The notes under the pieces: model-generated
The model's database searches: none
What the model saw: the letters and a program-made list of their open reading frames with translations, nothing else
Told to the model about the DNA's origin: nothing
Assembly: GCA_016931615.1 (NCBI GenBank)
Contig: JAFGEL010000038.1
Span: forward strand, 1-64,000
Reading direction: 5' to 3'
Origin: Desulfuromonadales bacterium
Lineage (GTDB): Bacteria; Desulfobacterota; Desulfuromonadia; Desulfuromonadales; Geopsychrobacteraceae
DNA: 64,000 nucleotides
Made by a program: the position numbers and the translations under genes
Shown here: one piece after another, positions 9,992 through 27,883 of the stretch
Layout: the number at the start of each line of letters is the position of its first letter
Numbering within the stretch: position 1 is the stretch's first letter

Positions 9992-10324
9992 TCAGTTACT
10001 GCGGATCATCGTAAGGAGCATCTTGAAACGCTCTTTCGCCTGCAAAGCGTGAGGGATATCGGCCGGCATGACCAACATCTCGCCCGACTGAACTATTTGG
10101 GTCTCTCCTCCGATGGTGATTTCGGCCGCTCCGTCGAGGATTTGAACCACTGCGTCAAAAGGAGCACTATGCTCGCTTAGACCCTGGCCGCTGTCAAAAG
10201 CAAAAAGGGTCAGGTTACTGATCTCCTTTTTCAACAGGGTTTTACTGACAACAGAACCGTCAGCGTAGTCGACGAAGTTTTCCAGATCAAAGGCAGTCCC
10301 TTTTGGGGCGGTCGATTCATTCAT
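9992..10324 (-). CDS. single-domain cupin protein
   Basis: About 110 residues forming one cupin barrel: the first metal motif is represented by SGQGLSEHSAPFDAVVQILDG and the second by SGEMLVMPADIPHAL. Such small cupins bind a metal ion and can be isomerases, dioxygenases or sensors; I cannot say which. The ATG at 10324 has an AAGGA stretch upstream; two earlier in-frame ATGs would add a Lys-rich tail. It is divergent from the hemerythrin gene across a Fur box. Confidence 0.8.
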   Translation of the reverse strand: MNESTAPKGTAFDLENFVDYADGSVVSKTLLKKEISNLTLFAFDSGQGLSEHSAPFDAVVQILDGAAEITIGGETQIVQSGEMLVMPADIPHALQAKERFKMLLTMIRSN

Positions 10325-10497
10325 TTTGTTTTTCCTTTTCGTCATATTGATCAAAAAAATCAGTTTCATTGGAGCAATCGTTGTTTCCTTTCAAGGGTGC
10401 AAACGCTGGTCAAGTTATGGCTGACGTTGTTGCAACTATAAAGTTCATAATACTGCCGAACTACAGCTCACAACTACCCCCCCTCCCCGAAAAAAAA

Positions 10498-10512: not shown

Positions 10513-10617
10513 ATTTTGATGTATGTCAATTTATTTCTTACGCGCGACCTGTAAACTGACAAATATCGGTAGATCGTTACACATTTAAACGAACTCACAT
10601 AGTCAAAGGATCACATC

Positions 10618-11934: not shown

Positions 11935-13320
11935 TTATTTGCCAAAGATCACCGGTGGCCTCGTTGTATCTCCAGTGGCATTCGGGAAATCTTTATAGAT
12001 ATAGGCTTTTTCACCCGTATTCAAAAGGTGATTTGCCTCCTCCATGAAACCGTTATAGCGATGTTTACACTCGTAGAAACCATGCCACCAGGCATAGTCC
12101 GGTGCCATCATCGCTGTCCCCATACGCGCACGCCGTCCTTCATGGTGCCAGAGCTCATAGAATTCTACTTCAAGGTGTTCATCAAAAAATTTATTCTGGT
12201 CCAGCAATCCCTTGCTGTAAAGGTTATCAAGCATTGATTTTGCAGGTTTAAAGTAAACTTCATTGTATTCTTCCACCACTTTGTCGAGCTTGGTGTAATG
12301 ATCTTCGACCCAGTTTTTCGCATGGCACGCCTTGCAGATATTTTTCATCTTATCCCGCTCAACCTTCCAGTTGCTCTGTGCCGGCAAAGGCTTGAAATTC
12401 TCTGGACGAACGGTCAAAGGAGCCTGCAATTCCCAACTGAGCCGCTCCGTCACGTCGTGAGTCGTCATTTGATCCGCGGCACCACTCATGTGGCAGGAAG
12501 CGCATGTCGGGGCACGGTAATCGACACCAGCAGTCCAGGTCCCAGGAGCTGCATCCCAGTTGTATTCATCGCCAAAAGCATCGTAGATATCGCCGTGTTT
12601 CGATTCGGTGAAAATCTCAATCTGCGGATGATCAGGTCCAAGGTGACATTGACCACAGGCTTCCGGTTTACGCGCTTCTGCAACCGAGAAACGGTGGCGT
12701 GTGTGGCAACTGGTACAGCTTCCCTTGCTCCCGTCAAGGTTAATGCGCCCAACACCGACGTTCGGCCAGGTATCCGAGGATAGGCGCCCACTTTCGTCCT
12801 TTTCCAGAACGGTTCCGTGACAATAGTAACAACCGGCCTGGCGCTCAATATCGGAGTTCATCCCTTTGTTTAACCAGGGATCGATCTTCCACATAATTTC
12901 TACAGTATTGGCGTGCTTACTCCGGCTGTATTCTTTGACTTCATCCGGATGGCAACGCGAGCAATCTTTGGGTGTCACAACTTCACTGATCGGAACCCGG
13001 TATTCTGAGCGTCCCCATTCGGTATCACTCCTTTGATACTGCTTGTAGTGAGTTTCACTGATATCCGGGTCGGTTTCATCGGCTAAATGACAATCAATAC
13101 AGGTAATATTGGCATTGGCATGGCGACTTTCGGCCCAGTCGGAAAAAATCCCAGGGTGTTCTGCCTTGTGGCATTCCAGGCAGGCCTGAGCCTCTTTGGA
13201 CATGCTGCGCTCCAAGCGGAAATCCTTGAGCTTAACCTGATTGGCAGCCAGCACTGTGCCGGCAAAAAACACACTCAACAGGACACTGATGAGTAAAAAT
13301 AGATATCTATATCTTCTCAT
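11935..13320 (-). CDS. octaheme c-type cytochrome, HAO-like
   Basis: A 461-residue periplasmic cytochrome with a signal peptide (residues 1-25, ending VLAA). Eight CXXCH motifs are present in order: CLECH, CIDCH, CSRCH, CYYCH, CTSCH, CGQCH, CASCH, CKACH. The segment CGQCHLGPDHPQIEIFTESKHG and the spacing place it in the hydroxylamine-oxidoreductase family; in epsilonproteobacteria such HAO proteins work with a NapC-type partner, probably on hydroxylamine or nitrite. The gene directly upstream here is such a NapC-type gene. A strong GAGGAGTGGAGG ribosome site precedes the ATG. Substrate is inferred, not shown. Confidence 0.9.
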   Translation of the reverse strand: MRRYRYLFLLISVLLSVFFAGTVLAANQVKLKDFRLERSMSKEAQACLECHKAEHPGIFSDWAESRHANANITCIDCHLADETDPDISETHYKQYQRSDTEWGRSEYRVPISEVVTPKDCSRCHPDEVKEYSRSKHANTVEIMWKIDPWLNKGMNSDIERQAGCYYCHGTVLEKDESGRLSSDTWPNVGVGRINLDGSKGSCTSCHTRHRFSVAEARKPEACGQCHLGPDHPQIEIFTESKHGDIYDAFGDEYNWDAAPGTWTAGVDYRAPTCASCHMSGAADQMTTHDVTERLSWELQAPLTVRPENFKPLPAQSNWKVERDKMKNICKACHAKNWVEDHYTKLDKVVEEYNEVYFKPAKSMLDNLYSKGLLDQNKFFDEHLEVEFYELWHHEGRRARMGTAMMAPDYAWWHGFYECKHRYNGFMEEANHLLNTGEKAYIYKDFPNATGDTTRPPVIFGK

Positions 13321-13388: not shown

Positions 13389-13916
13389 TCAAAGATCACG
13401 AGAATAGGCATATTGCTGTTTGGGGTTATGAACAAGGTACCGGTGGCAGTCGATACATTTTTTTTCGTACCCATCTCGTGCGTAGATCACCGTCCGATGG
13501 GCGAGCATTGCTCCTCTGTTTTCAGGCATATAGAGAATATTGCGATGACACTTCATGCAGTGATCGTTATCGATATCCTTATAAGCATGTTCCCGGTTTT
13601 TTTCGCGATCGTATTCTTCCAAAAAGATATGCGCGACCACATCCTTCAGGCCGTGATAGGCTTTGGAATAAAAGAAGTCAATTGTGTTATGGGGGGCTGG
13701 AAGGTGGCAGTCCATGCAGTCGGCTACGACCCCATATTCATTGAACCCGTGACTGGATGTTTTCCAGTCGTTATAGGCTGGCTGGATTTCATGACAGAGG
13801 GCACAGAACTGTGGTGTGGAGGTTCGGACCATGGTGTAATATCCCATACTCATCAGGGGCACACCAAGAATGACCCCAACAGCAACGAGCAGTGCAGCTT
13901 TCATCCATCGCTTCAT
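13389..13916 (-). CDS. NapC/NrfH-type tetraheme cytochrome c
   Basis: A 175-residue membrane-anchored tetraheme quinol dehydrogenase. One N-terminal transmembrane helix (about residues 7-27) is followed by four CXXCH motifs: CALCH, CMDCH, CMKCH and CIDCH. Proteins of this family take electrons from menaquinol and hand them to periplasmic reductases. It precedes the HAO-like octaheme gene on the same strand by 68 bases, so the pair probably forms one electron-transfer unit. AAAGGAGGTG precedes the ATG. Confidence 0.92.
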   Translation of the reverse strand: MKRWMKAALLVAVGVILGVPLMSMGYYTMVRTSTPQFCALCHEIQPAYNDWKTSSHGFNEYGVVADCMDCHLPAPHNTIDFFYSKAYHGLKDVVAHIFLEEYDREKNREHAYKDIDNDHCMKCHRNILYMPENRGAMLAHRTVIYARDGYEKKCIDCHRYLVHNPKQQYAYSRDL

Positions 13917-14054: not shown

Positions 14055-14101
14055 AGAAAAATAACAGCTCCCAGCCGCTCTTTTACGAGCGGCCGGAAGC
14101 T
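14055..14101 (-). terminator. Rho-independent terminator of extKL-like gene
   Basis: A 15-bp stem (14087-14101 with 14066-14080, a few G-U pairs) with a 6-base loop is followed on the minus strand by GTTATTTTT. It sits 15 bases past the stop of the selenocytochrome gene, so the NapC/HAO pair downstream likely has its own promoter in 13917-14050. Confidence 0.85.
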
Positions 14102-14116
14102 TTAATACCACTACCT

Positions 14117-15400
14117 TTATTTGTGATTAGCGCGCAATTCCTTGGCTAAATGTTTCACCTCTCCAAGATCTTCTGTCATCATGTTCCAGCCATACCAGTA
14201 GGCATAGTCCGGATTAACATGGAAAAATGCCTGGTAAGCACGCATCCGGTGCTTCATGTACATCCGCACCAAGACCTGATCGATATAGGAGAGATCATCC
14301 AATTTTTCGTTCCAGTTGGCACCGTTGGTGTGCATGAAGGTCAATAGGAATGGATAATTGTGAGGATAACCCTCCGGCTTCTTGATAATCCCGTCCTTGT
14401 AAAGAGCCGCAACGGTTTCAATCGCTTCGGCCATCAGTCGATCGGCCTTGGACAGGATGGCATCACCCATGTCAAGCTGCTCTTTTGCATACTTATAAGA
14501 ATGACACTGGGTACAGGTATCGAGCATCTTCTTGCGCTCTTTCTCCCAGGAAGCTTGGTCGAGCCGCGCCATGTCGACAGCCTTGACCGCATCCAAAATT
14601 GCTGTTGGTTCTCCGGTTTCCGGATCGAGAACACCAAGGGCTTTAAGGATAGTGACCCGGTCGGCAGCAGCTTGTGGATCTTCTGGCAATGGCAGCCGAA
14701 CACCTAAGAAACCCCAGGCTGTGTGGTTTTCATGAGTTCCGTTTGGCAAGTGACAGGTCTGACAAGTCGGTGCGGCTGCCCCCTCAGGAAGATCACCGTC
14801 TTTTTTCGCGAAATAGCGGGCGCCGTGTTTGGAGCTGGACCACATTTCCCACTGCGGGTGATCATAGCCCATATGACATTGTTGGCAGGCTTTCGGATTT
14901 TGGGCTTCCTTAAGCGAAAATGCATGACGGGTATGGCACTCATCACAGGAGTTATTCTGATAGCGATAACCTTTGGCCAGTTGATCCGCCTTTTGCTCCT
15001 CGGTCTTGATTCCCATGTTGTGACAGCCACCACAACCTCGACCGCCTTCGATCAGTTCGTCAGGAGCCATGTGCGTTGCCGGAATCGCGTTCAATACCGT
15101 CCAACCGAAATTATGCTTGCCGTGAGAAAAGGATGTGAACTGCTCTTCATGGCACTGCGCACAGACTTTCTCATCCGGCAATACGGCTTGAGTGTAATCC
15201 GCTGCATTTTTGTGTGCGTCACCGTGGCAGGTTTCTCAGGTAACACCGACACCGGCATGCTTACTGGCTTCCCAGTCTTTTACTTGTCCTGGAGAAATGT
15301 TGCTGTGACAGTCGATACAAACGTCTCCAGCCAGAGCAACTCCTGCAGTCATTAACAGACTGACCAAGCCTGTCAAGCAGGTCAATAGAACTCTCTTCAT
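14117..15400 (-). CDS. extKL: octaheme (seleno)cytochrome c, ExtKL-like, in-frame TGA as Sec
   Basis: One reading frame runs from the ATG at 15400 to 14117, interrupted only by a TGA at 15236-15238 (codon 55). The TGA replaces the first Cys of a heme motif, giving U-E-T-C-H. Read as selenocysteine, the 427-residue product has a signal peptide (residues 1-25) and eight heme sites: CIDCH, UETCH, CAQCH, CGGCH, CDECH, CQQCH, CQTCH, CTQCH. These line up one for one with the neighbouring HAO-like octaheme protein. I recall databases naming such proteins multiheme c-type cytochrome (seleno)protein ExtKL in Geobacter, where the halves were first called ExtK and ExtL. GAGGAGG precedes the ATG. Start-stop gene callers will split it in two. 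Confidence 0.85.
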
Positions 15401-15460: not shown

Positions 15461-15480
15461 ATGTGAATCTATATTCACAT
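15461..15480. promoter_or_regulatory. TetR-type operator upstream of extKL
   Basis: ATGTGAATCTATATTCACAT has perfect 8-base arms around CTAT. The core GTGAAT-N4-ATTCAC recurs at the tetR gene and upstream of the efflux operon. It lies 60-80 bases before the extKL start. Confidence 0.8.
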
Positions 15481-15515
15481 CTTAGGCAAAAAAACTTGCC
15501 AGCTATGTAACTATT

Positions 15516-16151
15516 TTATTTAACGGTAGAAATTCCTTTTATAAATATCTGCCAAGCACTTTCTACCTGAGTTTCTATGTCATAGTAAGCATCCCCAAGC
15601 TGATGGAGAAAAATAGCCGGCTGAATCAACCCCAGAAACATAAACGCCAAGGTATCAGGGTTTTGTCCTTTTTGAATCTGCCCCTTCTGCTGCCCAGAAG
15701 CAAAAATCTCAGCGACACGATTGAGGTAAAGTCGAACGCCCTCAAAGAGTTCCAGTTTCCGCTGTGATCCTTTAGCCAAAGCTCCTGTCGTAAACACATA
15801 ACGAGCAATACCATCGGTTCTAAGTGCTACCTCAACATGCAACAGCAATAACCGATGCAACTGAGTCAGCGGTTCATCGGTTCCCTGACAAGCCTTATGG
15901 ATATTCGCCAGCAGGCGATCCTTTATCAGCCCATTTACAGCCAATAGAATTTCTTTTTTCCCTGGGAAATGTCGATAGATGGCGGAGGGCACAAGCCCTA
16001 TCTGGTCGGCTATATCCGCTATATTCAATGCGGCAGGTCCATTTTCACTGATAAGCTTCAACGCAGCAGCGATAATCTGCTCGCGTCTGATTCCAGTGGC
16101 CAACCGTTGTGATAAACCTTCTGTATCTGGTGAATTATAATTCACATTCAT
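15516..16151 (-). CDS. TetR/AcrR family transcriptional regulator
   Basis: About 211 residues. The N-terminal helix-turn-helix (IIAAALKLISENGPAALNIADIADQIGLVPSAIYRHFPGK, roughly residues 24-65) is typical of TetR, and the C-terminal part is a variable ligand-binding all-helical domain. The gene sits between extKL and the efflux operon. A perfect palindrome of the same type as found near both lies inside its first codons, so it most likely represses itself and both neighbours, with release by an efflux-pump substrate. Start ATG at 16151; an in-frame ATG at 16172 would add 7 residues. Confidence 0.88.
   Translation of the reverse strand: MNVNYNSPDTEGLSQRLATGIRREQIIAAALKLISENGPAALNIADIADQIGLVPSAIYRHFPGKKEILLAVNGLIKDRLLANIHKACQGTDEPLTQLHRLLLLHVEVALRTDGIARYVFTTGALAKGSQRKLELFEGVRLYLNRVAEIFASGQQKGQIQKGQNPDTLAFMFLGLIQPAIFLHQLGDAYYDIETQVESAWQIFIKGISTVK
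16130..16145. promoter_or_regulatory. TetR-type operator at the start of tetR
   Basis: GTGAATTATAATTCAC is a perfect 16-base palindrome covering codons 2-7 of the tetR gene. It shares the GTGAAT-N4-ATTCAC core with the sites at 15461 and 23006, which points to autoregulation by road-block or start-site occlusion. Confidence 0.8.
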
Positions 16152-16238
16152 ACGAATATATATACTGAACAAATATATTTTTACAAGATTATTTCCTTTT
16201 TAAGACAAAATTATTTAACCATTAAATTTCCTATGCAA

Positions 16239-17252
16239 TTAATGACTTAAAAGGTCAATCATGGGGATCAGGCGCTGATAATCCTGATAAACAAGGGCAC
16301 TCTCCCAGTGGCCACTCACCATACCGAGACCGACACCTGCAGCATAGAGCGTCAGCAAAACGACCGGAAACATCCAACGTGGCAGAGGGTTACGCAAACC
16401 ACGCATGGACATGGCCAGAGAATTGTGCGGACAGGCCTCGACGCAACTCAGGCAGCCAGTACATTCGGCATTCATGACACGGGTTCGGCTATGGACACTG
16501 ATTCGTGATGGACAGGTGCGAGTACATGCCCGGCAGTTGGTGCAGGTAGTCGTATCTCGTCGAATTTTGAACGGACTCACGAGACTGACCAGACCGAGTA
16601 GGGCGCCATAGGGACAGAGGTAGCGACACCAGAAGTTTTTGATGAACAGCGACAGGACAATCACGACCGTTAACACGATCAATGTCGTCAGCGACATCTG
16701 GGTGAAAAAATTCAGCATTTTCACATCACTGAGAGCCCAGTACGGCGCTTTCAAAAACGCGGCGATAGCTGCGGAGGGCATATCGATCAGCACGATTTTG
16801 ACGAAAAAAGCCAGCAGCAGGTATTTCGTCCCACGCAACAGGACATCCAGCCAACGCCACAGGGTTAGAGAACGACCGAACAAACGTGTACCCAGCTTCC
16901 AGGCCCCTTCCGACAGGGTTCCAACCGGACAGAGCCAGGAACAGAAGGATTTCTTGGCCGCCAGACTCATGAGCAGGAAAGTCACAAGCAGAACCAGGGC
17001 CGCCGGGTGCAAGGTGTCAAACTGACCGGTGGTCAGCAGCAGCTTGAGGCTGGCCAGCCCGCCGATCGGCAGGAAGCCGTCTACCCCGCTGGGACGAGCG
17101 ACAAAGGGAGCCACTCCCTGACTGGTGAAATGCTGAACGAACTGACCGAAACGGATCCCGAGGTAGAGAACCCAGCAAAAGAAACTCCATTGGACCAGAT
17201 TCCGCCAGAGTGTTGTGTTTTTCCAAAGTAATTTCAGACTCATCTTCATCAT
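16239..17252 (-). CDS. NapH/NosR-like polyferredoxin membrane protein
   Basis: About 337 residues with several transmembrane helices, the paired CSWLCPVG and CRYLCPYG motifs on the cytoplasmic side, and two [4Fe-4S] motifs, CTNCRACTRTCP and CTGCLSCVEACP. This is the NapH/NosR/RdxA-type architecture, which moves electrons between quinol or cytoplasm and periplasmic partners. It follows the RND-TolC fusion gene closely, so it is probably the last gene of that operon; an electron-transfer protein beside a drug pump is unusual. The start is uncertain: GTG at 17297, ATG at 17288 or ATG at 17252. Confidence 0.85.
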   Translation of the reverse strand: MMKMSLKLLWKNTTLWRNLVQWSFFCWVLYLGIRFGQFVQHFTSQGVAPFVARPSGVDGFLPIGGLASLKLLLTTGQFDTLHPAALVLLVTFLLMSLAAKKSFCSWLCPVGTLSEGAWKLGTRLFGRSLTLWRWLDVLLRGTKYLLLAFFVKIVLIDMPSAAIAAFLKAPYWALSDVKMLNFFTQMSLTTLIVLTVVIVLSLFIKNFWCRYLCPYGALLGLVSLVSPFKIRRDTTTCTNCRACTRTCPSRISVHSRTRVMNAECTGCLSCVEACPHNSLAMSMRGLRNPLPRWMFPVVLLTLYAAGVGLGMVSGHWESALVYQDYQRLIPMIDLLSH

Positions 17253-17299
17253 ACCTGCACTTTCATTGTACTTTGCACCTGAATTCATCTGCAGCACCG

Positions 17300-20200
17300 T
17301 TACCTGATGCTCACATATTCTGAGTTAATACCTATATTCCCGCGGGCAAGCGAGAGTGCCAACCGAGCGATACCGACGGCTGCTTTCGCTTCCGTTACGA
17401 GACTTTGTGTTTTTAAAAAATCGGCCTCAGAATCCAGAACACTGGTTATGGTGCCTTTGCCTACTTCGTACTTGAGTTGCTCAATCCGCTGTGCTTCCTG
17501 GGCCTGGATAACCATCCGACGCGTCACTTCAAGTTTTGCCCGGGAACTTTCAAGATCGCTGTGTGCAATTTCAAACTCTTCATGAACCGCAATCCGTTTG
17601 TGCTTAAGCTGCTGTTTAATGGTTTCCTGATTGGCCTTGGACTGAATCAGCTTTCCGTTTCTGAAATGGCCGTCCAGAAGCGGAATTGTAAGGCGAATAC
17701 CGACGGTCACATCATCCTCCCACTTCTCACCGGCCGCTTGCATAGCTGAGTCCATGGGATCCTCAGCACCATAAATCCCGGCACTCCCCCAAAGTTCGAG
17801 TTCTGGCCTAAACCGCAGCTGAGCTTCTTTAATCAGGAACTGAGATGCTTTCAGATCTTCTTCGAGAGCGGCAACATCCGCACGTTGACCTGGATCAACC
17901 TTGATCTTCGTCGAAAAAGGAGAAGACAACAGTTTATGCTCCCCGCTTATCGGCAAGAGCGGCGGCAAGCTGCCTTCGAGACCCAGCAAACCAGCCAGAA
18001 CAGCTCTTCGTTTACGCTTTACGCTGCGATAATCAACCAGAACATTTTCAATTTCCGCCAGTTGAATTTGAATCTTCAGGCGATCAATTTGTGGGACCTT
18101 CCCCTGTGAAACCAACAGATCAATCTTTTGCGCCAGGGAGTAAAGACTTTTGCGAGAGGCTTCTGCAGCCTGGACCAAATCATCGAGTGCCAGTATCGTG
18201 AGATACTCCCTTGCGACAGAAAAAATAATTTCCTGCTTACGCCTTTGCTCCAGCAAGAGGCTTGCATTTTTATTTGCTGTTGCGGCCTCCAGAGCCGCCC
18301 GGGTCCGTCCGAAGTCGGTCAATAAAAACCGGGCGGATAATATGGTTTGAAAAATTTGCCTGTCAAATATCTGGCCGGCGGGAGCTAAACCGGGAACAAC
18401 AGCATGACTCTCTTTCGAACTGCTGATCCCACTTTCCAGGTTGACTTGCAGTTTTCTGGGAGCGGCGGCGACAAGGATCTTTCCTTTATGCAAAGTCGTC
18501 TGTGCCTGAACCTGGCCAAGGTCCGGATTGTTTTGAAGCGCAATTTCCACGGCTTTTTCGAATGAAAGCTTTGCCGGCAGTTGCATAGCACGAACCTGGT
18601 GTCCTGAAAATAAAAAGAAAATCAGAAGCAGTCCCATGCTGACAGGAATTTTTTTCCTTTTATTCAAAAGAGAGCCCAAACAGTCTGTTAAGGAATCCAG
18701 CGCCGAATAAATAACCGGGATAATAACCAGAGTGACGACTGTACCGAACAACAGCCCGGATGCCGCGGCAATGCCGAGAGGACTCATCCTCTCCAGTCCA
18801 ACAGCCATCTCAAAAATCAACGGTGAAAACCCGACAACTGTTGACACGGCGGTCATGAGAATCGGTCGTAAGCGCAACTGTACAGATTGCAATATAGCCT
18901 CATCCTTTGATATCCCCGAACGCCGTGCAGCAAGGATAAAGTCCAGCATCAGGATGGCATTATTGACGATAGTTCCGCCCAGGAGAATAATACCCATCAG
19001 AGCGGGCATACAGAAAGGTTTATTGAAGGCCAGCAAGCCCCACATCCCTCCCGCGGCGGCCAGGGGAATCGACAGCATGATCGTGAACGGGTGAATGAAG
19101 GACCTGAACAGAGCCAGCAACAGAATGAACAGCAGCACCAGACCGATGATCAGTGCCTGACCCAGTTCCTGTCCACTTTCATTCATATCACGTAGTGTGC
19201 CGGCTATTTCCATCGTATATCCGGCCGGAAGCGGGAGATCTTTCAGGCGATGCTGGGATTGCCGAGTCACTTCCGCGATGGTCAAAACCTGATTGCCTCC
19301 GGTAATATCGATTGTATTGGTGAGATTTTCTCGCGTCAGAAATGGTTGATCACGGTTTTCTTTTATACTGGCCAGGTTGTTCAAAGGCACCGGCCCATAA
19401 GAGGTCGGTACAGAAACCTGTTCCAATTGGGAGATATTCTGAACCTGGTCAGACTGATAGCGCACCCGGATAGGAATATCGAGATAGTTCTCCAAGGCCA
19501 TAGTGGATGCAACTCGTCCCTGCACGGCTGTACGTAAAACAGTCGCCACTGATGCCGGTGAAGTCGCATAAAGGCTGGCTAACTCATGGTCCACTACAAC
19601 TTTCTGTTCAGCTTTGTCCTGGTACCATGTTCGTCGCAAATCCTGCAATCCTGGTGTACCGCGTAGCAGCCGCAGAGTCTTATCCGCCAAACGATCTAAA
19701 ACCCGGGTGTCGGGTCCGGAAAGAACGATATTGAAAGGAGCCTTGGTTGTAGAGACCGGTGTCGCCCCGTACTCTGAGACGCGAAAAGTTCTCAAACCTT
19801 CGATCAAAGGTAACTGTTGTCGCCAGTCCTCCTCAATCTGCCAGATAGACCGGGATCGTTCCGTGCGGGGCGACAGGTGGACAGTTATTTTGGCCGCCTG
19901 GGCGGTCCCGCCACCACCGCCGAAGCTGATGGCATCAATCTCTGATCCTACTACCGCTGAAAGCGATTCAACCTCCGGGGTCCTCTGCAGCATGCTTTCC
20001 ACACGGGTCAAAACCGCTTCGACCCGTTGGGGTTGCAAAGATGAATTGGTATCAAATTCAACGATCGCAATTCCAGTGTCCATGGGCGGCATCTGTTCTC
20101 CACCTAACAATGGTTTCACAACCCGCATGGTGAAGATCAAAAAAATAACCGTGATGCCGAGAAACAGGATTCTATGGTTGATTGCGGTCTTGACCAAACC

Positions 20201-21766
20201 GAGGTAGAGCTTAGTCAACAGGTCCAGCGTGGTCGTCATCGGTTTGGTGAGAAGCTGATAGATCTTCCGCTCCCGTCGAGCTTTACCCAACAAACGGGAT
20301 GCCATGATGGGAATAACCGATAAAGAAATCAACAGTGATGCCACCAGCGTAGAGATAATCATAATATTGAGCGGTTGCATGATTTGACCGGTGTATCCCC
20401 CGGCAAAGAGCACCGGAATCAACACGATCACGGTTGTCAGCATCCCGGCGGTAATCGGGGCGGCAACTTGTTGTGCTCCTAGAACTGCTGCATCGCGACT
20501 GGATAATGAAGAATCGTCGGCATAATGGCGGTAGATATTTTCCAGCACCACGACCGAGGCATCGACTACCATACCAACCGCGACGATAAGCCCCGACAGA
20601 GTGACCATATTGAGTGTATAGGGGCTGAACCAGAGAACGACCATCGCCGACAGGAAAGACAAAGGGATGGCGACACTGACGACACCGGCTGCGCGGAGAT
20701 TGGAAAGAAACGCTAATATCACCAGTACCGTCAGGACGACCGCCTGCCAGAGAGAAGACCGCATGCCGCTGACATTGAGATCGATCAGAGGCTGTTGATC
20801 ATCTGTAATGGCGAAATGGATATCGGGATACCTCTTTTGAATGTCGGGAAGAACCTGCTTTAAATTGTTTATCGCTGCGACAGTTTGCCCTTTCTCAGGA
20901 CGCAGCACATTTACGGCAACAGCATTTATACCATTGCCGTGATAGATACTGCGTCGATCGGCGGTCCCCAGCTCGACGGAGGCTATATTGCGCAGGTAAA
21001 CCCTTCCCCCTGCGGGTGTCTTCAGGGGAAGGTTGCTTAAAGAATCCAGCCGGTCAAACTCACCGGCAATACGGATCAAATGCTCTCTATCAGTCGTATA
21101 AACCGTACCGCCGGGAGCACTGACATTCTGCAGAGCCAAAAGACTGATCACATCGCTAAGCGTCAGGTTATAGGCGATTAAGGCATCGCGATCAACGTGC
21201 ACCTCGACCTCATGACGATACCCGCCAAACACCTGGACGTCTCCGACTCCGGAAATGGACAGCAGCCGGTCTTTCAAGTCGTTTTCAGCCAACAGTCTGA
21301 TGTCCGCCAAACTCTTAAGACTCTCCGCGCCCGGGCTCAAGGCGAGTGTGACCAAAGGACGGGTAGCGTCGGTAATCCGATAGAGACCAGGTTCCGCGGT
21401 GTCTTGCGGTAAATCGCCACGGATCCTGGAGATCGCATTCTGGACATCAATAACCGCTTCACCGATGGACTTTGCGTAAACAAACTCGACATTGATCGAT
21501 GAGACCTCATCCCGTGAGGTGGAGACGATTCTCTTGAGGCCGGACAGGCTGACCAATTCTTTTTCGATGATCCTGGTAATGTTATTCGTCACATCGCGAG
21601 CCGCGGCGCCCGGTTGGGCGGTCACAATGACGACCTGGGGCGGAACTGTGTCTGGAAACAGGTCGGTCGGAACCCGCCAGAACGCAAAACTTCCCAGGCT
21701 GATGATGACCAGGGCCAAGGCAATGATGATGTAAGTATTTTTAAGGGAAAATTCAGGCAGGCTCAT
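17300..21766 (-). CDS. RND efflux permease fused to a TolC-type outer-membrane factor
   Basis: A single uninterrupted frame of 1488 codons. Residues 1 to about 1030 are an RND permease: N-terminal TM1, two periplasmic porter halves, and the TM4 motif [14 protein letters not shown] with one relay Asp. From Met1044 (18637) there is a signal-peptide-like stretch (MGLLLIFFLFSG, ending QVRA) followed by about 425 residues of TolC-like outer-membrane factor (SFEKAVEIALQNNPDLGQVQAQ; coiled coils; LKYEVGKGTITSVLDSEADF). The KRKK before the hydrophobic stretch fits an internal signal sequence after a cytoplasmic RND C-terminus. No good ribosome site precedes Met1044. It overlaps the upstream MFP gene by 4 bases. 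Confidence 0.88.
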   Translation of the reverse strand: MSLPEFSLKNTYIIIALALVIISLGSFAFWRVPTDLFPDTVPPQVVIVTAQPGAAARDVTNNITRIIEKELVSLSGLKRIVSTSRDEVSSINVEFVYAKSIGEAVIDVQNAISRIRGDLPQDTAEPGLYRITDATRPLVTLALSPGAESLKSLADIRLLAENDLKDRLLSISGVGDVQVFGGYRHEVEVHVDRDALIAYNLTLSDVISLLALQNVSAPGGTVYTTDREHLIRIAGEFDRLDSLSNLPLKTPAGGRVYLRNIASVELGTADRRSIYHGNGINAVAVNVLRPEKGQTVAAINNLKQVLPDIQKRYPDIHFAITDDQQPLIDLNVSGMRSSLWQAVVLTVLVILAFLSNLRAAGVVSVAIPLSFLSAMVVLWFSPYTLNMVTLSGLIVAVGMVVDASVVVLENIYRHYADDSSLSSRDAAVLGAQQVAAPITAGMLTTVIVLIPVLFAGGYTGQIMQPLNIMIISTLVASLLISLSVIPIMASRLLGKARRERKIYQLLTKPMTTTLDLLTKLYLGLVKTAINHRILFLGITVIFLIFTMRVVKPLLGGEQMPPMDTGIAIVEFDTNSSLQPQRVEAVLTRVESMLQRTPEVESLSAVVGSEIDAISFGGGGGTAQAAKITVHLSPRTERSRSIWQIEEDWRQQLPLIEGLRTFRVSEYGATPVSTTKAPFNIVLSGPDTRVLDRLADKTLRLLRGTPGLQDLRRTWYQDKAEQKVVVDHELASLYATSPASVATVLRTAVQGRVASTMALENYLDIPIRVRYQSDQVQNISQLEQVSVPTSYGPVPLNNLASIKENRDQPFLTRENLTNTIDITGGNQVLTIAEVTRQSQHRLKDLPLPAGYTMEIAGTLRDMNESGQELGQALIIGLVLLFILLLALFRSFIHPFTIMLSIPLAAAGGMWGLLAFNKPFCMPALMGIILLGGTIVNNAILMLDFILAARRSGISKDEAILQSVQLRLRPILMTAVSTVVGFSPLIFEMAVGLERMSPLGIAAASGLLFGTVVTLVIIPVIYSALDSLTDCLGSLLNKRKKIPVSMGLLLIFFLFSGHQVRAMQLPAKLSFEKAVEIALQNNPDLGQVQAQTTLHKGKILVAAAPRKLQVNLESGISSSKESHAVVPGLAPAGQIFDRQIFQTILSARFLLTDFGRTRAALEAATANKNASLLLEQRRKQEIIFSVAREYLTILALDDLVQAAEASRKSLYSLAQKIDLLVSQGKVPQIDRLKIQIQLAEIENVLVDYRSVKRKRRAVLAGLLGLEGSLPPLLPISGEHKLLSSPFSTKIKVDPGQRADVAALEEDLKASQFLIKEAQLRFRPELELWGSAGIYGAEDPMDSAMQAAGEKWEDDVTVGIRLTIPLLDGHFRNGKLIQSKANQETIKQQLKHKRIAVHEEFEIAHSDLESSRAKLEVTRRMVIQAQEAQRIEQLKYEVGKGTITSVLDSEADFLKTQSLVTEAKAAVGIARLALSLARGNIGINSEYVSIR

Positions 21767-22950
21767 TGCATCACCTCGACAAATTCACCGGCCGAGAGAC
21801 GGTTCCAGCCTAAAAATGTCGTTCGGACAACATGAGTACCGACAGGCAGCCCTGCTATCGCAGCCATTTCATCTTTAACAGCGAGAAGTTTGACGAAAAT
21901 CGGTCGCGTCACGCCATTTTCAACAATGAATACTGCTTTTTTGCCTTGAGGTGTTGATATCAGGCAATCTTCGGGAACCAACAGCACATCATCAAATTTT
22001 TCCAGCACAACGTCCACCAGAATATAACTGCCGGCCCGTATCGACAAATCAGAGGGGAGGTCAATTTCCACTGTCAGCGTTCGATCCTGATTCAGTGCAG
22101 GATGGACCCTGGAAATGTGGAGATGTGCATCTGTTTCAAATCCTTTGACCTTTACACTCAGCCCCTGTCTGATTGAAAGAGCTTCCTCCTGAGGAATGGT
22201 GAAGACCAATTTGGAGCAGGTCCCATCTTCGATTTCCAGGAGCTTCACACCAGTCAATGCAAGATCACCGGGATCAGCCATCCGCTTTCTGACCACTCCA
22301 TCGAAGGGAGCTGTTAAGTTAGTATACGAGAGCTTGATAACGGCCTGATCCAATCTTTTTTCAGCAACATTTATCTGTTCCTTCATTGCCCTGAGTGAGT
22401 GCTCAGTTGACTTGAGCCGCCCCTCGACCTCATGCAACCGATCAACTGTCGCATCCGCTTCAGACCGGGCGAGAGCACCTTCGCCAGCCAGAAAAGTGTT
22501 CCTTTGCTCTTCCTGTCTCCAGAAATCAAGATTCTTTTTTTGGGACTCTAAGGTTGCCTGTAAAGCAGCCGCCTGTTCGTGACTTTCACTCAATTGGGCA
22601 CGGGCCTGGTCAACGGCAGATTTTAGTTCACGACTCTCCAGCTGAATTAAGAGTTGACCTTTGCGAACCTGATCCCCCTCAGCAGCCAGAATCCTGGTGA
22701 TTTGAGATGTCAATCGACTTGATATATGACTGACACGGCAGGATTCGACTTCTGACAAATATGAGTAACCCTGTATCAACGATCCACGCTCAACTGTTGC
22801 CATTCTGACCGGAACCGGACGCTTGGAGTTCATCGTAGCTGTCGACAACTGCTGTTTTTTCTTAATAACCAAAAATCCTGCCGCGCCAATAAAGCAAAGA
22901 ATCATCACAGCAATAATGATACTTTTCATCTGGCCTTTTGCACTGCTCAT
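21763..22950 (-). CDS. RND efflux membrane fusion (periplasmic adaptor) protein
   Basis: About 395 residues. An N-terminal anchor helix (IIIAVMILCFIGAAGFLVI) is followed by a lipoyl-like half motif (LTSQITRILAAEGDQVRKGQLLIQLE), a long coiled-coil hairpin (about residues 100-180), the second half motif (TAPFDGVVRKRMADPGDLA) and beta-barrel domains. This is the HlyD/AcrA architecture that links the pump to the outer-membrane channel. It is the first gene of the operon and overlaps the pump gene by ATGA. The ATG at 22950 follows a GAGAGGG; an in-frame ATG at 22998 would start almost at the operator. Confidence 0.9.
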   Translation of the reverse strand: MSSAKGQMKSIIIAVMILCFIGAAGFLVIKKKQQLSTATMNSKRPVPVRMATVERGSLIQGYSYLSEVESCRVSHISSRLTSQITRILAAEGDQVRKGQLLIQLESRELKSAVDQARAQLSESHEQAAALQATLESQKKNLDFWRQEEQRNTFLAGEGALARSEADATVDRLHEVEGRLKSTEHSLRAMKEQINVAEKRLDQAVIKLSYTNLTAPFDGVVRKRMADPGDLALTGVKLLEIEDGTCSKLVFTIPQEEALSIRQGLSVKVKGFETDAHLHISRVHPALNQDRTLTVEIDLPSDLSIRAGSYILVDVVLEKFDDVLLVPEDCLISTPQGKKAVFIVENGVTRPIFVKLLAVKDEMAAIAGLPVGTHVVRTTFLGWNRLSAGEFVEVMQ

Positions 22951-23005
22951 CTCAAACCCTCTCTTCCAGAGCACATTTACAGGTCTTATTCCCCACATTC
23001 CCCAT

Positions 23006-23021
23006 GTGAATTATCATTCAC
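23006..23021. promoter_or_regulatory. TetR-type operator upstream of the efflux operon
   Basis: GTGAATTATCATTCAC has perfect 6-base arms around TATC and matches the sites at 15461 and 16130. It lies 56 bases before the MFP start and just beyond the hcp terminator. Confidence 0.8.
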
Positions 23022-23101: not shown

Positions 23102-24730
23102 TCAGTTCCCGGCCATGATCGCAGCCACGTCCGCTTCGACCTCGCCGATCGGCTTGATGTCGAAGTTCTCGACCAACACTTTTGCCACATTGGGTGACAG
23201 GAACGCAGGGAGTGTCGGTCCCAGGCGGATGTGTTTGACACCGAGAGCCAGCAGCGCCAGCAACACCACGACCGCTTTCTGCTCGTACCAGGCGATATCG
23301 TAGGAGATCGGCAGGTCGTTGATATCATCCAGCTCGAAAACTTCTTTCAGCTTCAGCGCAATGTAGGCCAGCGAATAGGAGTCGTTGCACTGACCGGCAT
23401 CGAGAACCCGCGGAATACCGCCAATATCGCCGAGGTCGAGCTTGTTGTAGCGATACTTGGCGCAACCTGCGGTGAGGATAACACTGTCGTTCGGCAACGC
23501 TTCGGCAACCTCTGTGTAGTAGTTACGAGTGGTGTGACGGCCGTCGCACCCGGCCATGACCACGAAACGCTTGATCGCGCCGGTCTTGACCGCATCGACC
23601 ACTTTGTCGGCCAGGGCCATCACCTGGGCATGGGCAAATCCACCAACGATCTCACCGGTTTCGATTTCAACCGGAGGTGCGCAGGTTTTGGCCTGTTCGA
23701 TAATTGCAGAGAAATCCTTGCTGCCGCCTTCAGGACGCTCAGGAACATGTGTAGCGCCCGGCCAGCCGGCCATGCCGGTGGTGTAGATGCGGTCACGGTA
23801 GGCGTCCTTGACCGGAGTGATGCAGTTAGTGGTCATCAGGATCGGCCCGTTGAAAGAGGCAAACTCCTTGTCCTGCTGCCACCAGGCGTTACCGTAGTTG
23901 CCGACGAAATGATCATATTTCTTGAACGCCGGGTAATAGTTGGCCGGCAGCATCTCACTGTGGGTGTAAACATCCACGCCGGTGCCTTCGGTTTGTTTGA
24001 GCAGCTCTTCCATATCCTTGAGATCGTGACCGGAGATCAGAATTCCGGGGTTGCCACGCACACCGAGGTTGACCTTGGTAATTTCCGGATTGCCGTAGGT
24101 CGAGGTGTTGGCCTCGTCGAGCAGGGCCATCGCTGTCACAGCAACCTCACCGCATTTCAGAACCTGGCCGGTCATCTCGTCAACGCTCAGATCCTGGGTG
24201 GTCGATGCCAAGGCGGAGACCATATACTCGTAGACTTCAGGTTTCTCGAAACCAAGCATCGCCGCATGGTCAGTGTAGGCGGCCATCCCTTTCAGACCAT
24301 AGATCAGGAGTTCGCGCAGGGAACGCACATCTTCGTTCGGCTGGGACAACACCCCGACTTCAGCCGCCTTGGCGGCGTATTCGGATTCATCTCCGTTCCA
24401 GTTGACGACATCGGCATCGCTGCTGAAACCGATCGCCAGTTTCAGAGCATCACGCTTGGCGATAGTCGCCTTGATCAGTTCCTTGATGCGTTGATTGTCA
24501 AAGTTCGCATTGGTGATAGTCGCGAACAGGGCCTGGCAGATGAACAACCCAACCGAATTGTCCAACTTGCCCTGCTGCTTAGCTTCTTCAGCCACCAAGG
24601 CCAGGCCTTTCAGGTTGTGAACCAGCAGATCCTGCAGGTTCGCGGTGTCCTCCTTCTTGCCACAGACTCCAGCGACGGTACAGCCGGTTCCTTTAGCTGT
24701 TTCCTGACATTGAAAACAAAACATGCTCAT
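23102..24730 (-). CDS. hcp: hybrid cluster protein (hydroxylamine reductase), class I
   Basis: A 542-residue iron-sulfur enzyme carrying a 4Fe cluster and the hybrid 4Fe-2O-2S cluster. It reduces hydroxylamine in vitro and is tied to NO detoxification and protein S-nitrosylation. The N-terminal cysteines are spaced CX2CX8CX5C (Cys5, Cys8, Cys17, Cys23), as in class I proteins of strict anaerobes. Hybrid-cluster ligands are visible in [46 protein letters not shown] and [11 protein letters not shown]. No hcr reductase gene is linked. Two FNR/HcpR-like boxes lie upstream, shared with a divergent four-gene cassette. Confidence 0.97.
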
Positions 24731-24840
24731 GAAATGTGCTCCTTTCGTTCCGGGTTATAGGTGATGACTTTAAATGTAACCTCAATTCGTGAGGGTTCAA
24801 CTTTGTGGGCAAAACATCCCATAATTTCAAAGAGAAAAAA

Positions 24841-24854
24841 TTGATCTAGGTCAA
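24841..24854. promoter_or_regulatory. FNR/HcpR-type box 1
   Basis: TTGATCTAGGTCAA, a TTGAY-N4-RTCAA dyad of the CRP/FNR superfamily, 111 bases from the hcp start and just upstream of the divergent cassette. Confidence 0.7.
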
Positions 24855-24885
24855 AAATAAAAAATATAACTTTTTTTGTTAGATT

Positions 24886-24899
24886 TTGACTTAGATCAA
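24886..24899. promoter_or_regulatory. FNR/HcpR-type box 2
   Basis: TTGACTTAGATCAA, the mirror-like counterpart of the box at 24841, 45 bases away and 58 bases before the ATG of the cassette's first gene. HcpR proteins bind TTGAC-N4-GTCAA-like sites upstream of hcp in deltaproteobacteria, so both promoters are probably NO- or redox-controlled. Confidence 0.7.
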
Positions 24900-24956
24900 T
24901 TAATTCTTTTCTTTGTCGGTTTAGACTCACAACATAAACAGAAAGGAGAACGAATC

Positions 24957-26189
24957 ATGACAACAGCAACACTCCATAAAGATATGACCGTCAAAGATGT
25001 ATTAAATAACTGGCCAGAGACCCTGGATGTTTTTATCGCCAACGGGTTTGAAAACTTCCGCGAACAAAAACAGCGTGACGCAGTCGCCGCCTACCTGAAA
25101 CTGGAGCGTGCGGCCAAAACCAAAAACTACGACCTCGATAACTTCATGGGCTTGCTTCAGGAAAAAATCAATGAACAGCTCAACCTGGCTGATGTCACTA
25201 TGAAGCAAACCCGAAAAAAAGATTCCGATGTCAATGTCGCCGGTTTACTTCCCTGCCCGGTTCGACTGCCTTTGCTGGAAGGTTTCGACAACTTCATTGA
25301 AAATTACACGGCACAGACAGGTCATACTGTCAGTTACAAGCTGGAAGCAGCCTCGGTAGGATCCGACTGGATTGAAGCGAACCTGAAAGGGATCGACAAT
25401 GTCGATGAATTGCCTGATGTTTTTCTTTCTGCAGGGTTTGAAACCTTCTTCGATAAAAAAACGATCGGCAACTTTAAGGACCAGGGAGTTTTTACTGATA
25501 TCACCGGAGATCAGGTCAATGCTGCTTTTGCCGGTGTCGACATCAAGGATCCGAAGCGGGATTACTCCATTATCGCTGCGGTCCCTGCGGTCTTCATGGT
25601 CAACCATGATGTTCTTGGCGATCTGCCGGTACCACGACGCTGGTCCGACCTGCTCAAGCCGGAATATGAGCAACGGGTCGCCTTGCCGGTCGGAGACTTT
25701 GACCTGTTCAACGCAATTCTGCTCGCGATTCACAAAGAGCATGGCGAAGACGGCGTCAAAAAGCTGGGGCGCTGCATGTTAAAATCGATGCATCCCTCAC
25801 AGATGGTCAAGAATGCCAAGCGCGTGGCTGAGGAGAAACCGCTGGTCACCATCATGCCCTATTTCTTCACAAAGATGGCGCGCACAGTTCAAAGTCTGGA
25901 AATCGTCTGGCCGCAGGATGGGGCTGTAGTCAGCCCGATTTTCATGCTGACAAAAAAAGCAAGCATGGACAAGGTCAAGCCGATCGCCGAGTTCCTCTCC
26001 AGTAAGCTTGTTGGAGAGATTCTGGCCCATAAAGGGTTGTTCCCCTCTCTTCATCCCGAGGTGGACAATCAGCTCAATTCTGACCACCCGTGGAAGTGGG
26101 TCGGCTGGGACTATATCTACAATAATGACATCGGTGAGCTGATCCACCGGACGAATGATATTTTTGAAACCTCCATGAATGCGGTGTAA
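24957..26189 (+). CDS. DUF1858 domain plus solute-binding-like protein, no signal peptide
   Basis: About 410 residues. Residues 10-60 match DUF1858 (MTVKDVLNNWPETLDVFIANGFENF). From about residue 95 the protein resembles a type 2 periplasmic solute-binding protein of the Fe3+/molybdate kind (GLLPCPVRLPLLEGF, LPDVFLSAGFETFF, AVPAVFMVNHDVL, WSDLLKPEYEQRVALP). It has neither signal peptide nor lipobox, so it should stay in the cytoplasm. The start is ATG at 24957, with AAAGGAG upstream. It opens a four-gene unit divergent from hcp, 9 bases before a GTPase gene. A cytosolic metal or anion carrier or sensor is plausible; the ligand is unknown. Confidence 0.82.
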   Translation: MTTATLHKDMTVKDVLNNWPETLDVFIANGFENFREQKQRDAVAAYLKLERAAKTKNYDLDNFMGLLQEKINEQLNLADVTMKQTRKKDSDVNVAGLLPCPVRLPLLEGFDNFIENYTAQTGHTVSYKLEAASVGSDWIEANLKGIDNVDELPDVFLSAGFETFFDKKTIGNFKDQGVFTDITGDQVNAAFAGVDIKDPKRDYSIIAAVPAVFMVNHDVLGDLPVPRRWSDLLKPEYEQRVALPVGDFDLFNAILLAIHKEHGEDGVKKLGRCMLKSMHPSQMVKNAKRVAEEKPLVTIMPYFFTKMARTVQSLEIVWPQDGAVVSPIFMLTKKASMDKVKPIAEFLSSKLVGEILAHKGLFPSLHPEVDNQLNSDHPWKWVGWDYIYNNDIGELIHRTNDIFETSMNAV

Positions 26190-26198
26190 GGATAAAAC

Positions 26199-26882
26199 AT
26201 GAGATTTCTGACTGTGTCCGGGCCACCATCGTCCGGAAAAACTTCGGTCATCCTTCGGGTCATTGAAGCTCTTCAGGCCCGCCAACGAAAAATCGGCGTA
26301 GTCAAATTCGACTGTTTGCTGACCGATGACGATAAACGCTATGCTCAGAAAGGGGTGCTGGTCAAGAAAGGACTCTCCGGGGCACTGTGTCCGGATCACT
26401 ACTTCGTCAGCAACATTGAATCCTGCGTTACCTGGGGACATGAAAACGGCTGCGAGTATCTGATCAGCGAAAGCGCCGGGCTCTGCAACCGCTGCTCACC
26501 GCACATCAACGAGATTACCGCAGTCTGCGTCATCGACAACTTGAGCGGCATCAACACCCCGCGCAAAATCGGTCCAATGCTCAAATCGGCGGATATCGTG
26601 GTGATCACCAAGGGGGATATCGTCTCACAGGCCGAGCGTGAAGTCTTCGCCTCACGAGTCAAGCAGGTCAATCCCGGGGCAGTCATCATGCATGTCAACG
26701 GAATCACCGGCCAGGGTGCCTTTGAGTTGACCAGCCTGTTCGAAGAAGCTTCGGATATTGAAACCCTGAAAGGCAAAACCTTACGTTTTTCCATGCCGTC
26801 GGCGCTCTGCTCTTACTGTTTGGGGGAAACCCGGATCGGTGAAGAGCACCAAACCGGCAATATCAGAAAGATGGATATTTAG
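26199..26882 (+). CDS. HypB/UreG-like P-loop GTPase
   Basis: A 227-residue nucleotide-binding protein. Walker A is GPPSSGKTS at residues 8-16, a switch-like SESAGLCNRCSPH segment lies near residue 90, and TKGD fits the base-recognition motif. The closest families are the SIMIBI GTPases HypB, UreG and CobW, which load metal into enzymes. Two cysteine pairs (CNRC in the middle and CSYC near the C-terminus) could bind metal or a cluster. It lies between the solute-binding-like gene and the ABC ATPase gene (gap of 2 bases), so it is clearly part of the same unit. Its client may be Hcp, which is inference. Confidence 0.8.
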   Translation: MRFLTVSGPPSSGKTSVILRVIEALQARQRKIGVVKFDCLLTDDDKRYAQKGVLVKKGLSGALCPDHYFVSNIESCVTWGHENGCEYLISESAGLCNRCSPHINEITAVCVIDNLSGINTPRKIGPMLKSADIVVITKGDIVSQAEREVFASRVKQVNPGAVIMHVNGITGQGAFELTSLFEEASDIETLKGKTLRFSMPSALCSYCLGETRIGEEHQTGNIRKMDI

Positions 26883-26884
26883 AA

Positions 26885-27883
26885 ATGAAAGACACAGCTA
26901 TTTTTCACCAGTCACTGGCCCAGATCCTGGAAGACCATCCATATATCGAGGATTTCCTCAACTCTTTCGGTTTGGAGATCAAGCCGACCGGTGACAGTTT
27001 GCAGCATTTTTTAGACAACCTTAATCCAGATGACCTGGAAGACCTGGGCGTCAGCAACGATCAGTTGAGATCTAATTTGAATGATTTTCTCGATGGCATG
27101 CTAGCGATTCAGCATCCGCTGGACAAAGTTGAATCATTGACAATCATTGGCGGACATAACAAATCAGGAGAAGCGGAAAACCTCGAATTTACCCTTCGGC
27201 CTGGTGAAGTGGTCTGCATTGTCGGTCCGACAGGTTCGGGTAAAAGCCGCCTGCTGGCCGATATCGAATGGGTCGCACAGGGGGATACGCCAACCGGGCG
27301 AAAAATCATGATCAACGGTCAGATGCCCGATGGAAAATGGCGTTTTTCCACCGAGCACAAGCTGGTCGCCCAATTGTCCCAAAACATGAACTTTGTCATG
27401 GATCTTTCCGCAGAGGAATTCATCCGGATGCACGCTGAAAGCCGTCTCATTCCTGATCCCGAACGGAAAGTTCGACAAATTCTGGAGCAAGCCAACGAAT
27501 TGGCCGGAGAACAATTTACTCCCGACACACCAGTCACCTCACTAAGTGGAGGCCAGTCACGGGCGCTTATGATCGCCGACATGGCATTTTTAAGCAAATC
27601 CCCGATCGCTTTGATTGATGAAATCGAAAATGCAGGCATTGATCGCAAGAAAGCGCTGGAGTTACTGGTACGTGAGGAAAAAATTATCCTCATGGCCACC
27701 CATGATCCGATCCTGGCGCTCATGGGGGACCGCAGACTGGTGATCAAGAATGGAGGCATCGCCAGAATCATTGAATCCAGTGACATGGAGCGGAAAAATC
27801 TCCAGCAGTTGGAAGAATTAGATAATAAACTACTCGCCCTGAGAAACCGAATCCGGTTGGGCGATACCCTTGAACAGATTTAA
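26885..27883 (+). CDS. ABC-type ATPase with N-terminal DUF1858-like domain, no permease partner
   Basis: A 332-residue protein. The first 80 residues resemble DUF1858 (LAQILEDHPYIEDFLNSFGLEI), as in the first gene of the unit. Residues about 85-300 form a complete ABC ATPase: Walker A GPTGSGKS, signature LSGGQSRALMIAD, Walker B PIALIDEIENAG and switch His in MATHDP. A C-terminal helical tail follows. No transmembrane permease is encoded in this unit or nearby, so the ATPase probably acts in the cytoplasm, as in SufC or other non-transport ABC proteins. Confidence 0.83.
   Translation: MKDTAIFHQSLAQILEDHPYIEDFLNSFGLEIKPTGDSLQHFLDNLNPDDLEDLGVSNDQLRSNLNDFLDGMLAIQHPLDKVESLTIIGGHNKSGEAENLEFTLRPGEVVCIVGPTGSGKSRLLADIEWVAQGDTPTGRKIMINGQMPDGKWRFSTEHKLVAQLSQNMNFVMDLSAEEFIRMHAESRLIPDPERKVRQILEQANELAGEQFTPDTPVTSLSGGQSRALMIADMAFLSKSPIALIDEIENAGIDRKKALELLVREEKIILMATHDPILALMGDRRLVIKNGGIARIIESSDMERKNLQQLEELDNKLLALRNRIRLGDTLEQI

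Follow-up and report, generated by a model that had tools for sequence, protein, structure and literature searches.

A dyad, GTGAAT-N4-ATTCAC, found at three sites around a tetR gene was identified as the predicted operator of the adjacent TetR-family regulator, with a rough probability of 0.9. Sequence comparison makes it very probable, if slightly less so, that TetR is an autorepressor that acts through this dyad and represses three units: tetR itself, an efflux pump operon and the gene for an HAO-like octahaem cytochrome (OCC1). TetR autorepressors that control efflux pumps are a known kind; the predicted novelty lies in a regulon that includes an HAO-like octahaem cytochrome and in an operator conserved across phyla. 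The in silico evidence comprises the three sites, the lack of further exact copies in the genome, the conservation of the sites together with the regulator and, across the family, the geometry of the -10 box and the operator.

The locus was characterized within the window, the whole stretch of 64,000 nucleotides that was analyzed. Read along the minus strand, it contains hcp, a terminator, operator 3 and the genes for the periplasmic adaptor (MFP), the RND/OMF fusion and a NapH-like protein, followed by operator 2 at the tetR start, tetR, operator 1, OCC1, a hairpin, an NrfH-like gene and OCC2. The tripartite RND pump is complete. The MFP adaptor gene (21763-22950; PF16576, with TIGR01730 above its cut-off) was given its start at 22950 by our own reading, the longest open reading frame beginning at 22998. 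The RND permease (PF00873) and the outer-membrane channel (PF02321) are fused in one open reading frame of 1488 aa (17300-21766), and the same fusion is present in Malonomonas rubra (L054). The last gene of the pump operon (16239-17297) encodes a NapH-like 4Fe-4S membrane protein (PF12801 and Fer4), whose top NCBIfam match, the NapH/MauN subfamily, fell under the cut-off. The tetR gene (15516-16151), with a start codon placed by comparison with orthologs, encodes a regulator of 211 aa (PF00440, E 2.8e-14).

OCC1 (14117-15400; PF13447) is directly followed by a strong terminator-like hairpin of 15 pairs (14066-14101), suggesting that it is transcribed alone. Beyond the hairpin are the genes for an NrfH/NapC-type tetrahaem cytochrome (13389-13916; PF03264) and a second octahaem HAO-like cytochrome, OCC2 (11935-13320; PF13447; nearest PDB entry 4qo5, E 3e-47). 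At the other end, the gene for the hybrid cluster protein, hcp (23102-24730; PF03063), is separated from the pump operon by the terminator at 23064-23037. The terminators point to three units under TetR, namely the pump operon, OCC1 and tetR itself, and the NrfH-OCC2 pair and hcp are each probably transcribed on their own. Divergent from hcp, the stretch 24951-27883 encodes a DUF1858-solute-binding protein, a CobW/HypB-like GTPase and an ABC ATPase. In another genome, G078, what is apparently the same set separates the pump from tetR (L057 5784-8700).

All three dyads lie near the starts of minus-strand genes. Operator 1 (15463-15478; GTGAATATAGATTCAC on the minus strand) is about 60 bp upstream of the OCC1 ATG at 15400. 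Operator 2 (16130-16145; GTGAATTATAATTCAC) is at the tetR start, 6 bp past the likely ATG at 16151. Operator 3 (23006-23021; GTGAATGATAATTCAC) is just past the hcp terminator and about 55 bp upstream of the likely MFP adaptor ATG (about 22950). The three copies listed in the preliminary description were confirmed as exact, the first of them with a start 2 bases above the 15461 given there. That description proposed a genome-wide scan for the dyad and held that frequent, patternless occurrence elsewhere would tell against a shared operator; the 2,938,963 bases of the assembly contained only these three exact copies, all around tetR. The reversed pattern had no copy in the whole assembly (2.94 Mb). 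Five one-mismatch dyads were found elsewhere in the assembly, and about six are expected by chance by simple arithmetic over the 12 fixed positions. A shuffled-window control that allowed up to three mismatches gave 20 dyads vs. 30 expected and was uninformative at this tolerance. The dyad positions are kept in other genera, which argues that the sites in the window are more than chance. A literature search of open-access text found no paper on the dyad motif. A sigma-70 consensus scan of the window gave no match at the pump site and, near tetR, no match on the correct strand, and the -10 and -35 matches beside the window's operators were weak.

Orthologs of TetR (48-57% identity) were rare in the class, being detected in six other genomes among 277. 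The arrangement in Malonomonas rubra DSM 5091 (G028; L138 is the same contig) is that of the window, with hcp, an operator, the adaptor, the pump, the tetR operator and the OCC1 operator, and a NapH-like match in its pump-tetR gap is limited to a 204-bp piece. Genome G078 contains the same three operators, with one mismatch each at tetR and at OCC1. The counterpart of operator 3 lies between hcp and the adaptor gene in both genomes (L054 1515 in G028 and L066 1501 in G078), and operators 1 and 2 occupy the same places in L054, L055-L057 and L059. Exact dyads were detected at tetR and OCC1 in G074, one-mismatch dyads at both genes in G070 and G077, and two-mismatch copies at tetR and downstream, beside the RIC iron-sulfur repair gene, in G124. 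None of 24 close OCC1 homologs without this TetR alongside had a dyad within one mismatch. It is the regulator, not the cytochrome, that the dyad tracks. Malonomonas rubra also has a second copy of OCC1, 87% identical, away from the TetR locus (G028:C25:234957-236231). In G077 and G078, an exact dyad precedes the gene for a chemotaxis receptor with a PilJ-type N-terminal domain (L056 16219-17952; L078 1501-1516), about 8-11 kb from OCC1, which is a possible further target.

The same association was detected well beyond the class. A scan of named genomes gave a wider family of 79 TetR loci (28-57% identity), with hosts among the Planctomycetes (including anammox genera), Acidobacteria, Verrucomicrobia, Nitrospirae, Desulfobacteraceae, Geobacter relatives, Sporomusa and others. 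Exact dyads numbered 53 in 82 family loci (1.24 Mb) vs. 0.0 in mononucleotide shuffles, and dyads with up to one mismatch numbered 109 vs. 3.2. The dyad was present at the tetR start in 58 of the 79 loci, just downstream of tetR in 35 and at both places in 32; the reversed pattern was found at neither place in any of the 79. The extended operator consensus across the family is AT-GTGAATNNNNATTCAC-AT. At 25 of the 58 tetR-start sites, the end of a TATAAT-like hexamer (5 or 6 of 6) coincided exactly with the edge of the operator, an abutment by which a bound dimer would cover the transcription start, and a TTGACA-like hexamer was present at 16-18 bp in 29 of the 58 (one when shuffled). This geometry was weaker at downstream sites (4/36 and 1/36). 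As in TetR-family autorepressors, the palindromic operator stands at the regulator's own promoter and is conserved with the regulator. The proposal that tetR, the cytochrome gene and the pump share one operator type, with TetR as its likely reader, is upheld by the uniqueness of the dyad in the genome and by its conservation among orthologs and across the family.

Exact dyads were detected in 41 of the 277 genomes of the class. When 40 regions with an exact dyad were fetched from elsewhere in the class, 14 proved to be at another TetR of the family and 26 were without one, which means that the motif alone is no proof of a target; the background of dyads without a family TetR is about 0.1 per genome (277 genomes). 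A flavodiiron gene and the gene for a different octahaem cytochrome flank an exact dyad in G020 and G022 (L227 3896-3911; L228 763-778), where the fetched stretch contained no TetR of the family.

The presence of hcp next door would fit a dyad read not by TetR but by a global regulator of the CRP/FNR type, such as HcpR. In delta-proteobacteria, HcpR controls hcp and other nitrogen-oxide stress genes, in a network that includes cytochrome- and hemerythrin-like genes (PMC1274295). The published HcpR consensus, wTGTGAnnnnnnTCACAw (PMC1274295), had no match at the three operators, however, and the dyad tracks the TetR gene across phyla. HcpR-like motifs were found elsewhere, before hcp and before a hemerythrin-cupin pair. 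These have the form TTTGA-N6-TCAAA, which is close to the HcpR motif with T instead of G as the third base (PMC1274295), and they lie at 24840-24855 and 24885-24900, between hcp and its divergent neighbor, and at 10515-10530, between the cupin and hemerythrin-PAS genes; with up to one mismatch, this form occurs four times in the window vs. 3.6 expected, a chance number overall. HcpR is a most improbable reader of the dyad. The hcp gene itself is not behind a dyad and has the different, HcpR-like motif in its upstream region, suggesting that HcpR is its more likely regulator and that it stands beside the TetR regulon rather than within it. The locus and the HcpR regulon are alike in hcp and nitrogen-oxide stress genes, and HcpR likely acts on hcp beside the locus; HcpR differs in its protein family and its motif, and its published network names no TetR (0 occurrences, PMC1274295). 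A cupin gene of the window (9995-10369), near OCC2, encodes a product similar to a small cupin protein found after a tetR-type operator in a Desulfobacteraceae MAG (L118 10854-11192).

OCC1 is, by prediction from its sequence, an octahaem relative of hydroxylamine oxidoreductase. It has the PF13447 domain and the eight haem motifs of HAO-like octahaem cytochromes; all eight are present in its orthologs, and the window's OCC1 has seven plus one with a TGA. The Malonomonas ortholog matched hydroxylamine oxidoreductase structures at E 1.5e-25 to 5e-22 (6t5e at 1.5e-25 and 4n4j at 1.7e-24). A CHMG-DH-W stretch is conserved, and the C-terminal alignment is weak where the cross-linked Tyr, which is present in oxidases and not in reductases, would fall. 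Little is known of what HAO-like octahaem cytochromes do in organisms other than nitrifiers and anammox bacteria.

The preliminary description had identified the cytochrome as extKL and proposed that the regulator joins extracellular electron transfer and efflux, with a flavin or quinone shuttle as a possible inducer. The cytochrome is indeed multihaem, its nearest named ortholog is that of Malonomonas rubra, and the host organism is related to metal-respiring Desulfuromonadales. Geobacter ExtKL is also a multihaem cytochrome with a TGA in the reading frame, but it is pentahaem, belongs to family NF040886 and is encoded in an ext cluster with a porin (PMC5877670). The model specific to ExtKL, NF040886 (PMC13188914), was absent from the NCBIfam matches of the TGA-read-through OCC1 protein, which has eight haem motifs and not five and has hydroxylamine oxidoreductases as its best structural relatives. 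OCC1 is not ExtKL, and the pairing of extracellular electron transfer and efflux was not supported. No evidence pointed to a flavin or quinone inducer. The partners of the regulator across the family, efflux systems with a minority of nitrosative-stress genes, favor a signal of nitrosative or xenobiotic stress rather than an electron shuttle, and we consider the electron-shuttle proposal very unlikely.

The further description of OCC1 as a selenocytochrome concerns an in-frame TGA (15236-15238). This TGA is codon 55 and stands where haem motif 2 would have its first Cys. Cys occupies this position in 29 of 29 other homologs compared, and the nearest homolog (L090) is identical in the haem motif 2 stretch save for TGT vs. 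TGA. The machinery for selenocysteine is present, with SelB and tRNA-Sec above cut-off. Against this, the 59 nt from the TGA folded no better than shuffles (z +0.8) and gave no SECIS-like fold, although folding alone could miss a weak SECIS, and the TGA falls at an otherwise invariant haem cysteine, leaving the selenocytochrome unproven. The TGA is possibly a selenocysteine codon, a nonsense mutation or an assembly error, and OCC1 may not be made in this strain.

The regulator has a TetR_N helix-turn-helix (PF00440, 53.1 bits vs. a cut-off of 24), and its AlphaFold2 model, computed with 51 family members as input, was confident (pLDDT 89). Bacillus FadR 3whc headed the fold matches (Z 19.8; 2.4 A, 187 residues), although several other TetR proteins tied with it. 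The operator half-site of Bacillus FadR, TGAAT, is that of the dyad, with another spacing. A FadR-like sensor of acyl-CoA or fatty acids, with a pump that exports amphiphiles, would be consistent with the fold match, as 3whc is B. subtilis FadR with stearoyl-CoA, and with the best PDB sequence matches, which were also FadR. The identity was 21%, however, and the score against the FadR model NF053878 was 48.6 bits, under its cut-off of 200. Bacillus FadR (3whb, 3whc) shares the fold and differs in having fatty-acid targets; no fatty-acid genes were noticed in the TetR regulon, and the TetR fold is common to sensors of very different ligands. Sensing of acyl-CoA by this regulator is unlikely. 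Residues invariant in the 51 family sequences were R22, the recognition-helix IYRH (58-61), H105 and W200. No cysteine was invariant among them, arguing against a thiol or Fe-S sensor common to the family.

The neighbors of the regulator were compared across the family. Efflux systems, of the ABC/ABC-2, MacAB-TolC, RND or MMPL-like type, were the usual companions at the 79 loci. At least one of hcp, the flavodiiron protein, RIC, NrfH and octahaem HAO-like cytochromes was found in the fetched flank of 15 of the 79 named loci, and the remaining 64 had none of the nitrosative-stress queries of the single panel used. The hcp gene adjoins the pump in the window, in Malonomonas rubra and in G078. 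In G273 (L261), hcp and OCC1 are divergent from tetR-OMF-MFP-RND, with an exact operator. A flavodiiron protein gene and then a protoglobin gene lie past OCC1 in G070, G077 and G078 (families tested on G077). Flavodiiron genes also lie behind an exact dyad in L120 and past the RND gene in L121; at dyad loci without the TetR, a flavodiiron gene was near 2 of 26. A hemerythrin gene lies past the RND gene in L167 and L174 (Pfam test on L167), and NrfH-OCC2 lies past tetR in L156. In other families and among Nitrospirae, the regulator is again associated with cytochromes of the same kind (L166, L184, L261, and L262).

These neighbors bear on the signal, and the identity of the inducer is the least certain part of the explanation. 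An ordinary TetR repressor of multidrug or xenobiotic efflux, with a cytochrome acquired by chance and a hydrophobic toxicant unrelated to nitrogen oxides as inducer, would have the same operator assignment and would differ only in the signal. The varying efflux systems that are the usual companion over the 79 loci, together with the 64 loci without a nitrosative-stress match, favor such a repressor; the cytochromes linked to the regulator at L166, L184, L261, and L262 do not, nor does the recurrence of hcp, the flavodiiron protein, RIC or hemerythrin beside it. We place its likelihood a little short of even. The recurrent partners, efflux in most loci and hcp, flavodiiron, RIC, hemerythrin and HAO-like proteins in a minority, led us to prefer a nitrosative or related toxic-compound signal, and the most likely class of inducer is a compound tied to nitrosative stress, or else a toxic organic substance that the cell encounters under such stress. 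Tentatively, then, a TetR subfamily of many phyla with one nearly invariant operator may sense something produced under nitrosative or hydroxylamine stress, and may couple the efflux of damaged or nitrosated compounds to a reduction carried out by octahaem cytochromes, beside the known HcpR, NsrR and NorR systems. This proposal is held only as a possibility because most loci have efflux systems only and the neighbor counts are without a formal background.

We infer a mechanism of binding, repression and derepression. A TetR dimer would occupy the three operators, in the -10 region or immediately downstream of it, and would block RNA polymerase, so that tetR, the MFP-RND/OMF-NapH operon and OCC1 are kept low. 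A small inducer would enter the FadR-like ligand domain and release TetR, and the release would turn on export and a multihaem cell-envelope enzyme together.

Parts of this arrangement have precedents. MSMEG_3765/Rv1685c is a mycobacterial TetR repressor of an ABC efflux pump that is induced in acid-nitrosative stress (PMC5660060). By description, it shares with the regulator predicted here autoregulation, an efflux target and a nitrosative context, as well as a palindrome that overlaps the TATA box and runs into the coding sequence; it differs in its 36-bp mycobacterial motif, in its ABC pump and in having no cytochrome in the described operon. Among RND pumps, MdtEF and MexEF-OprN are the nitrosative-stress precedents (PMC10333786). 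The pump of the window may resemble them by analogy, as RND pumps that respond to or protect from nitrosative stress (PMC10333786). They differ in their regulators, MexT for MexEF-OprN and EvgA for mdtEF, and no TetR dyad or HAO-like cytochrome is described for them (PMC10333786).

With these comparisons, a motif spotted by eye becomes a testable regulon, in which TetR targets can be predicted from a single short operator in hosts ranging from Desulfuromonadia to anammox planctomycetes, acidobacteria and Sporomusa. Should the inducer be a reactive nitrogen product, a TetR branch would be added to nitrosative-stress control in strict anaerobes, and HAO-like octahaem cytochromes would gain a physiological setting beside a drug pump.
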